NCBI GenBank assembly: GCA_017475555.1
Contig: JAFVFL010000046.1
Coordinates: forward strand, 62,001-126,000
Direction of reading: 5' to 3'
Length of the DNA stretch: 64,000 nt
Origin: Ruminococcus sp.
GTDB lineage: Bacteria; Bacillota; Clostridia; Oscillospirales; Ruminococcaceae
Part shown: piece after piece, positions 49,451-52,407 of the stretch
Layout: each line of letters starts with the position of its first letter
Numbering within the stretch: the first letter of the stretch is position 1
Position numbers and translations under genes: made by a program
The notes under the pieces: model-generated
Database searches by the model: none
Told to the model about the DNA's origin: nothing
Seen by the model: the letters and a program-made list of their open reading frames with translations, nothing else

Positions 49451-49497
49451 GCAGAAACATTTTTCTAAAATGGTATATTAAAAAAAGGAGAATGACA

Positions 49498-50787
49498 ATG
49501 CCAGCACCATTAGCTGATAGAATACGCCCGAAAACGCTCGATGATGTTGTGGGTCAGGAGCATATCCTCGCTCCCGGAAAACCGCTCCGCAGAATAATCG
49601 AAAGCGGCAAGGTACCGAATATGATATTCTATGGCCCTTCGGGTATCGGAAAGACCACTGTCGCACGGATAATCGCTGAAAACTGCGGAATGTCGCTGCA
49701 TAAGCTCAACGGAACGAGTGCTTCTACATCGGATATCAGGGACGTGGTGGCTCAGATAGGCACATTCGGCTCAGAAAACGGGATACTTCTCTACCTCGAT
49801 GAGATACAGTACCTTAACAAAAAACAGCAGCAAAGTCTGCTTGAATACATCGAAAACGGCGATATAACGCTTATCGCATCAACTGCGGACAATCCGTATT
49901 TCGCTGTATACAACGCTGTTATAAGCCGGTGTACTGTGTTTGAATTCAAGCCTGTAACGGCGGAGCAGCTTATACCGGCTGTCAGGCGTGCCTTCCGTAT
50001 GATTGGAGAGGAGAATGGCACGGATATAGTTATAAGCGACGAGGCTGTCAGAACTATTGCATACGGCTGCGGAGGAGATGTCCGGAAAGCCATGAATACT
50101 GCGGAGCTTTGTGCGGTATGCGGTGAGGAAAGAGACGGAAAGCTCGTCATAACCGAGGATTCGCTCAGGCTGCTTTCGCAGCGTAGCAATATGCGATACG
50201 ACCGTGACGGCGACCAGCACTATGACCTGCTTTCGGCATTCCACAAGTCTGTCCGTGGCTCTGATGAGAATGCGGCTCTGCACTACGCTGCACGGATAAT
50301 GGAGGCGGGGGATATTACGTCTGTCTGCCGGAGATTGCTGTGCATTGCGGCAGAGGATATCGGACTCGCCTACCCTATGGCAATACCGATCGTCAAGGCG
50401 TGCGTGGATTCGGCATTGCAGCTCGGACTCCCGGAGGCACGGCTGCCGATAGCTGATGCTGTGATCCTGCTCGCTACTGCCCCGAAATCGAACAGTGCAT
50501 ATCTTGCTATAGACGCAGCAATACGTGACCTTGAGGGCAGCGACGCACTTGATTTTCCACGGCATTTGCAGAACGTCCACCTTGACGGAGAGGGAGCGGC
50601 TGTCAGGGGTCAGCATTATCTTTATCCGCACGATTTTCCGAACCACTATGTCTGTCAGCAATATCTTCCCGATGCACTTGCCGGGCACGTTTACTACAAA
50701 TTCGGTGATAACCGGCAGGAACAGGCGGCGTTGGAATATCGCCGGAGAATAACAGGTGCAGCTGATACAGCGGACAATAAGAAATGA
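49498..50787 (+). CDS. rarA: Replication-associated recombination protein RarA
   Basis: A 429-residue AAA+ ATPase (RarA/MgsA/WRNIP1). Walker A GPSGIGKTT, Walker B YLDEIQYLNKKQQ, sensor block ASTADNPYFAVYNAVISRC, then the C-terminal tetramerisation domain (GAAVRGQHYLYPHDFPNHYV). It acts at stalled replication forks. I prefer ATG 49498, 7 bases from the AAAGGAG site; ATG 49492 lies too close. The repeat element ends about 48 bases upstream. Confidence 0.95.
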   Translation: MPAPLADRIRPKTLDDVVGQEHILAPGKPLRRIIESGKVPNMIFYGPSGIGKTTVARIIAENCGMSLHKLNGTSASTSDIRDVVAQIGTFGSENGILLYLDEIQYLNKKQQQSLLEYIENGDITLIASTADNPYFAVYNAVISRCTVFEFKPVTAEQLIPAVRRAFRMIGEENGTDIVISDEAVRTIAYGCGGDVRKAMNTAELCAVCGEERDGKLVITEDSLRLLSQRSNMRYDRDGDQHYDLLSAFHKSVRGSDENAALHYAARIMEAGDITSVCRRLLCIAAEDIGLAYPMAIPIVKACVDSALQLGLPEARLPIADAVILLATAPKSNSAYLAIDAAIRDLEGSDALDFPRHLQNVHLDGEGAAVRGQHYLYPHDFPNHYVCQQYLPDALAGHVYYKFGDNRQEQAALEYRRRITGAADTADNKK

Positions 50788-50800
50788 GAAATGCGTAATA

Positions 50801-50836
50801 AAAAGCAAAGAGCCTCAGCTCCAACGGCTGAGGCTC
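50801..50836. terminator. Bidirectional terminator between rarA and the large RNA
   Basis: Ten-base stem GAGCCTCAGC/GCTGAGGCTC (50810-50819, 50827-50836). Plus side CCCGTTTTATT, minus side TTTGCTTTTTATT. Confidence 0.85.
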
Positions 50837-51545
50837 CCGTTTTATTCAATTTTGTTATGCGGATATTCCGCCACACAAGTTAGCTAATTTACCTTTAAGA
50901 CTGATAGATCAATCACTTTACATCTATACAAGTCAGAACCAGCTATGTGATCGCATTCTGTTTTACCAGAATCTTTCAGACTCTCATGGGACTCACCCTT
51001 CTGAAATATTTCCCTTTTACTCAGGGATAAACGACCCAGAAACAAGCTTGATTATCTCATTGGAGTATACCTCACTGGATTATTCAGACCTCTATCGTCT
51101 GTAACAGCAGTTTTCCTAATGAACGAATATATCTAAAGACTCACGTCGGAATTTCAGGTTCGCCTGTATCTCTTATGAGCTTAGACATGAAGCCGTTTCC
51201 TTCAGCAATGCGTCTGTCTGAATTGAACTGATCCCTTACTATTTGAATATACAATTCACTGGAACAAGTCATCTGACCTATATTCCCTCACTCAGATCCT
51301 GTCAATCAGCAAGCCCGCAGGCTTCACGCTGCTGTGATGAAATTAACCTATTTGCCATCGGACTCACTCACCTTTCCGCATAGAATAATTTACATTGATT
51401 CCAGCTCTCCGACAAACCGCTCTCACATGAAATATCTTCAAGCCTTCCTCAGTCCAAGTAAATTCAGCTTCGGGGAAACTCAGGATCTGCTGCGACCCGA
51501 CTGTTGCCGGATCCTTTTTGCTATCCCTTGTTCTTCCCTTTCCTT
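50801..51545 (-). ncRNA. Large structured noncoding RNA, about 745 nt, class unknown
   Basis: The 965-bp gap after rarA has no credible protein frame on the minus strand. It has a consensus promoter (TTGACA 51580-51575, 17-bp spacer, TAATAT 51557-51552) and a terminator at 50801-50836. The sequence in between is not AT-rich filler. It forms many hairpins: 51482-51487 with 51510-51515; AAGCC/GGCTT at 51311-51324; CAGG-CGAA-CCUG at 51155-51166; CAGAC/GUCUG at 51085-51101; AUUCUG/CAGAAU at 50955-50972; GCGGA/UCCGC at 50859-50871. The string GUGAGUC recurs. Size, rumen-type host and ornate folding recall the large RNA classes ROOL, OLE and GOLLD, but I cannot match it to any. Confidence 0.75.
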
Positions 51546-51551
51546 AATTAT

Positions 51552-51580
51552 ATATTACCACAGCTTTAGTGAAATGTCAA
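51552..51580 (-). promoter_or_regulatory. Promoter of the large RNA
   Basis: Minus strand: TTGACA 51580-51575, 17-bp spacer, TAATAT 51557-51552; transcription should begin near 51545. Confidence 0.8.
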
Positions 51581-52132: not shown

Positions 52133-52370
52133 ACAGACAGGGATACTGAGGTGACATTCAGTCGATATGCACATCAGAATGCCTGTATATCATGCAAATA
52201 TTCTGCCTTGTTCGAGTAATTATAGTTCATATGATCCAACACATTTTTTAAGGGAATTCGGCTCCGTGTGTGGACTGCAGACCTCCTGCCCGGGTGTTTA
52301 CATTCGGATACAGACGAAGGGAGCGAGAATCACATGGGCGTTTACCCACCTGCTTTAGTGCGGGTTTTAT
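52133..52370 (+). ncRNA. Structured noncoding RNA of about 238 nt, possibly 6S-like
   Basis: A strong promoter is followed by about 238 bases without a convincing coding frame and then a terminator (ACCTGC/GCGGGT at 52348-52365, followed by TTTAT). Inside are hairpins such as ACTGA/TCAGT near the 5' end, CAGAAT/ATTCTG around 52173-52210, TCG/CGA and GGG-CGTTTA-CCC near the 3' end. The 5' AGGTG can pair with the 3' CACCT, closing the molecule. This closed-rod shape and size fit 6S RNA, but I cannot confirm the class. Confidence 0.55.
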
Positions 52371-52407
52371 TCACTATATGACGGCAAGGCGGAATATTTT
52401 TGAAAGC

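Follow-up and report, generated by a model that had tools for sequence, protein, structure and literature searches.

A conserved structured RNA gene with tandem start-stop modules in Ruminococcus, possibly a ribosomal counterpart of 6S RNA

A large RNA gene of about 745 nt, real, conserved, structured and delimited from promoter to terminator, is well supported in the window, i.e., the whole 64,000-nucleotide stretch of the Ruminococcus sp. genome analysed here. It is previously undescribed and of a kind not in Rfam. Its most widely conserved part is a set of tandem Shine-Dalgarno/start/stop modules, which the initial annotation of the stretch overlooked, and selection for this start-stop arrangement is likewise well supported. 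We tentatively propose, with a confidence clearly short of even, that the gene represents an RNA class, present in Ruminococcus, elsewhere in its family and in one or more neighbouring families, whose tandem start-stop mimicry of initiation sites serves to sequester or store ribosomes, as a ribosomal counterpart of 6S RNA.

The RNA gene, its fold and its locus

The gene occupies 50798..51545 on the minus strand, its start placed from the −10 element and its end from the terminator. Both signals are those that the initial annotation had read from the sequence, and together with homologues in Ruminococcus they confirm its proposal of a large RNA gene. The promoter (51552..51580, minus strand) is TTGACA-N17-TAATAT with a TG before the −10 (extended −10); it recurs in other genera and, as TTGAC(A/T)-N17-TATTAT/AATAT with a diverged spacer, in nearly all homologues. 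The intrinsic terminator (50808..50838, minus strand) consists of 12 pairs followed by TGCTTTTTAT and was found in most homologues, where RNA lengths range from ~515 to 1380 nt. The gene is presumably expressed. Additional genomic promoter matches in two Ruminococcus genomes (L092, L093) are promoters of type IV pilin-like genes; promoter and first leader bases are very similar to those of the RNA, hinting at one strong promoter type common to both.

As a query, the window sequence matched only the same genus, bar one marginal short match. A better homologue (L004) as query recovered homologues in 101 of 125 genus genomes, including 65 of the 68 good ones, and thus the conservation in other Ruminococcus genomes on which the earlier proposal depended is present. 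Named hosts in a pattern scan were Ruminococcus flavefaciens strains and Ruminococcus MAGs, besides a few chance matches or mislabelled MAGs. One genome (G001) carries, at the end of contig C31, a second, contig-truncated copy of the 3′ part of the RNA (L090), either a paralogue or MAG contamination. Compared with most relatives, the window RNA has insertions near its 5′ end and a degenerate 3′ end; it is a degenerate member of the class, with three modules.

The ornate folding noted initially is borne out. The 745-nt RNA folds at −223.9 kcal/mol (z −2.2), better than 19 of 20 dinucleotide shuffles, which alone is suggestive of a structured RNA. Since a single-sequence z value is only suggestive, the question of structure was decided by covariation in homologues. 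Within the genus-conserved 5′ domain (51126..51545, minus strand) lies a core (51181-51334) that matches a covariance model, R1, built from it. The core alignment of 45 diverse sequences (51334-51181 in the window) contains 33 pairs, 19 of them with compensatory double changes (RNAalifold), whereas shuffled alignments gave a mean of 7.6 such pairs and reached 19 in none of 500 trials. Controls with slid partners gave 5–12 pairs with double changes, and 96.4% of cells pair in the true alignment. The core is therefore a conserved structured RNA with compensatory changes beyond chance; it comprises a long-range helix (UGAAGCCG with CGGCUUCA), a 10-pair helix in which all pairs covary, and a hairpin. 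R1 found nothing convincing outside the genus; two other genera gave matches with E of about 0.03, which lacked modules and were rejected. Long-range helices joining the 3′ modules to the 5′ domain showed no convincing covariation. A conserved bulge of the 5′ hairpin, UUGGACU, was also considered as a pairing partner of the modules and rejected, since species with UUGGUCU keep GAGUCCAA and no covariation was seen by inspection.

No Rfam family matches the RNA in the window or at homologous loci. The initial annotation had left it as either a divergent member of a large RNA class or a new one, and named ROOL, OLE and GOLLD; newness to Rfam stands, but cmscan returned none of the three from the window region at E ≤ 10 or from 16 homologous loci at E ≤ 1. 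Searches of 50,697 phage records and 72,556 plasmids, and of IMG/VR by pattern, likewise gave no match. With no covariance-model match, and with a gene that is chromosomal, syntenic and absent from the phages, plasmids and viral contigs searched, kinship to ROOL, OLE or GOLLD is not supported. No description of such an RNA was found in the open-access PMC literature, subscription papers and preprints lying outside the scope of that search.

The locus is conserved as well. The RNA gene converges with rarA/mgsA (49492-50787) and diverges from a DUF1292 gene (PF06949; 51753..52055, plus strand), which is kept with the RNA across genera; the third member is 6S RNA (52197..52399, plus strand, 69.7 bits), which lies downstream of DUF1292. 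This arrangement of three genes is maintained, and DUF1292 followed by 6S recurs in many genera. Within the genus, rarA, DUF1292 and nrdG recur as neighbours (DUF1292 in almost all of 20 loci), as does 6S RNA. Beyond the genus, 6S RNA adjoins 14/20 and 7/13 loci in two sets at gathering score. No tmRNA over the cut-off was found in the window's own assembly, although smpB is present, probably reflecting an assembly gap. A role of the RNA as tmRNA substitute was rejected because it has no Rfam match and most genus members have both tmRNA and the RNA.

Start-stop modules in Ruminococcus and beyond

The initial annotation saw no protein frame on the RNA strand. Long frames are indeed absent, the minus-strand frames across the gene all being short ones, but the strand does have AUGs that are preceded by strong Shine-Dalgarno sequences and soon followed by stops, and "noncoding" is only loosely correct. 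In the window, module 1 (51358..51375, minus strand) places the extended Shine-Dalgarno AAAGGTGAGTGAGTCC directly ahead of the ATG at 51358. It opens mini-ORF 1 (51302..51358, minus strand; MANRLISSQQREACGLAD*), which has 18 codons (16 are usual in relatives) and overlaps one strand of the long-range helix. Mini-ORF 2, ATG AGA TAA (51052..51060, minus strand), is preceded by the module GTGAGGTATACTCCA at 51075-51061, and mini-ORF 3, ATG AGA GTC TGA (50976..50987, minus strand), by AAGGGTGAGTCCC at 51000-50988.

Across the genus, AAAGG(N0-3)UGA(G/U)UCC(A/G)AUG occurs repeatedly in each of the RNAs, and its AUG is always followed by an early in-frame stop. Taken over all genera, the module consists of an extended Shine-Dalgarno (AAAGG..UGAGUCC), one base, an AUG and a near-immediate stop (MR*, MY*, MK*, even AUG-UAA). 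Some copies lack the AUG, among them, in Ruminococcus, the final one ahead of a GNRA hairpin (CCAAAGG or CCACAGG). Copy number changes through tandem duplication, as in R. flavefaciens FD-1, with four tandem 70-nt MR* modules, and in XPD3002, with four tandem terminal AUG-less modules. ORF2 is AUG AGA NNN stop, with three codons in 65/83 Ruminococcus orthologues, AGA as second codon in 80/83, and stops divided among TAG (32), TAA (31) and TGA (20); ORF3 has 2–7 codons in most RNAs. Strong-SD AUGs open shorter ORFs than those of shuffled RNAs (p = 1e-6, indicative only, as the rows are related). UGAGUCC is absent from ordinary ribosome-binding sites of the window. An orphan module, AAAGGAATGATTCCCATG with the ORF MECTYFTE*, occurs in the leader of an Hsp20-like gene of another genome (G008; L195 near 1500), and modules may also act in cis on mRNAs.

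Two ORFs are longer. ORF1 has 14–20 codons (16 in 65/84 Ruminococcus RNAs), and ORF4, mostly of 8–10 codons and of the type MKMRYTFKI*, changes length in frame and varies mainly at third codon positions (0.73 bits vs. 0.33 and 0.27; nine distinct sequences). This codon-position pattern, and basic peptides that recur near the 3′ end in several genera, would fit a messenger for short peptides, of ~16 aa from ORF1 and ~9–15 aa from the basic peptide ORF, with the remaining modules as decayed copies. However, ORF1 was rejected as a conserved peptide, since it lacks third-position bias and tolerates frameshifts (5/80 are frame-shifted), and it is the ORFs of 1–3 codons, too short for any useful product, that are conserved most strictly. 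A messenger is the least probable account of the gene. The same ORFs could alternatively be leader-peptide-like parts of a translation sensor, in which the presence of ribosomes would switch how the RNA folds or how stable it is, in response to initiation factors, tRNA or antibiotics. The overlap of ORF1 with a strand of the long-range helix and the third-position-biased, in-frame length variation of ORF4 are consistent with this, but no gene lies downstream, the RNA ending in a terminator and facing rarA in the window, and second codons vary widely between genera. We consider a sensor quite unlikely.

The modules extend beyond the genus. In a further genus of the family, a motif pattern search of 11 genomes identified two copies separated by 117 nt, belonging to an array of at least six modules (MY*, MR*, MT* and AUG-less) with the same promoter and a divergent DUF1292 gene; the 5′ domain is unrecognisable there despite the shared promoter and array. 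Family-wide, the pattern occurred in 119/398 genomes and 55/126 genera (GTDB units), while a reversed-pattern control matched just three among the genomes listed. Many single matches are ordinary gene starts, so it is the arrays that count. At least 15 genera besides Ruminococcus have arrays, one of these genera lying in a different family of the order, and the sequence between the modules is unrelated; in a class-wide sample outside the order the motif was near background. The RNA from the other family (L264) is only ~300 nt long and consists of promoter, two AUG-less modules, MYT*, a basic peptide, MYS* and terminator. As arrays recur where the 5′ fold is unrecognisable, what these RNAs have in common is the array and not that fold.

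Outside the genus, 51 loci were examined, with 45 AUG modules in arrays. A stop follows within three codons in 41 of these 45, against 21.6% by chance (p = 3e-23), whereas pairs and singletons have medians of 11 and 13 codons to the stop. Because this statistic depends on related sequences within genera, we also took a single genome from each of 16 genera (Ruminococcus among them, and one that belongs to another family), which gave 31/42 (p = 8e-13), and 23/26 when the first AUG copy was left out. Frame +2 as a control gave 2/42; frame +1 gave 19, because AUGA contains UGA. A minigene-type start-stop (Shine-Dalgarno, AUG, stop within 2–3 codons) is therefore present above chance. We know of no bacterial RNA gene built as an array of ribosome-binding sites each ending within a few codons.

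ORFs of two to three codons might also be effectors in themselves, causing peptidyl-tRNA drop-off and depleting particular tRNAs in the manner of the lambda bar minigenes; drop-off and tRNA depletion are known consequences of minigenes (review PMC8012679), and AGA in ORF2 is nearly invariant in Ruminococcus. Outside the genus, codon 2 differs widely (TAC, AAA, GTA, GCA, others) or is absent (AUG-UAA), so no single tRNA would be targeted, and such an effector appears very improbable.

Predicted pairing with the 16S rRNA tail

With one bulged base, the module resembles AAAGGAGGUGAUCC, which is complementary to the entire single-stranded 3′ tail of 16S rRNA; we take this tail to be the expected Firmicutes sequence, GGAUCACCUCCUUU. 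Pairing of AAAGG..UGA-K-UCC with it is predicted to span most of the tail, far beyond an ordinary Shine-Dalgarno. Predicted pairing energies average −13.4 kcal/mol for AUG and AUG-less copies alike, against −9.7 for ordinary genes of the window and −6.1 for shuffled modules, all computed with this assumed tail, which may not be that of the hosts. Strong tail sites exceed those of shuffles in some RNAs (5 vs. 0.4, 8 vs. 1.2, 10 vs. 2.8).

From these predictions we infer pairing with 16S rRNA, ribosome binding and a regulatory outcome. That a stand-alone structural RNA docks and holds 30S subunits or initiating ribosomes approaches, in our estimate, an even chance. The modules would dock these via the 16S tail, the stop 1–3 codons past the AUG would keep a captured ribosome from running on into the RNA, and modules without an AUG would bind through tail pairing only. 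Docking might be tuned or sensed by the 5′ domain (in Ruminococcus) together with the pair of longer, peptide-like ORFs, that of the first module and the basic peptide ahead of the last. Counting against docking, the window RNA has two strong tail sites, no excess over a shuffle mean of 2.5; predicted site accessibility is not above average, albeit by single-sequence folding, an uninformative method; and ORF1 and the MK..RY ORF could encode functional peptides.

The modules may instead act as a sponge or scaffold for a protein that recognises UGAGUCC in RNA, possibly a ribosomal protein or the one encoded by the DUF1292 gene, with the stops merely excluding ribosomes. AUG-less copies retain UGAGUCC, which normal ribosome-binding sites lack, copy number varies as in CsrB-type sponges, and a DUF1292 gene adjoins 32 of the 51 loci. 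A sponge would, however, not require such exact keeping of AUG and stop, and the module resembles the tail complement; we judge it unlikely.

If the RNA holds ribosomes, as the docking model proposes, it would regulate translation globally in bacteria that dominate gut and rumen, with its gene next to that of an RNA that regulates RNA polymerase, and RNA-based ribosome sequestration would be directly testable. Its locus offers a long-sought context for DUF1292, and the module can serve as bait for more such RNAs missed by searches on sequence or fold.

Comparison with known systems

With ROOL, GOLLD and OLE the RNA shares being large, structured, stand-alone and bacterial; it differs in being chromosomal, syntenic and not phage-borne, and in its start-stop modules. 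For OLE, sequestration of the ribosomal protein RpsU has been proposed, and in pull-downs ribosomes are bound by GOLLD (PMC12286853). The CsrB/RsmZ sponges resemble it as dedicated RNAs with many copies of one short motif in variable number, but here the motif is not ANGGA and includes a start codon after which selection favours an immediate stop; Rfam CsrB/CsrC gave no match at gathering score. The lambda bar minigenes and the mg2 minigene of axe-txe share the arrangement of Shine-Dalgarno, AUG and stop within 2–3 codons (PMC8012679, PMC8708949), although those are single and lie within mRNAs or phage transcripts, whereas here 2–8 modules are arrayed within a dedicated RNA gene.

The remaining comparison is with its neighbour, 6S RNA, from which it differs in sequence and fold, the 6S gene being separate and intact at 52197-52399. 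6S RNA mimics the open promoter, the site targeted by RNA polymerase as a core machine, and thereby holds the polymerase. By analogy, the RNA described here would mimic a ribosome-binding site as the counterpart of 6S RNA in translation, and its position beside 6S lends appeal to the hypothesis that transcription and translation might be held back in concert.
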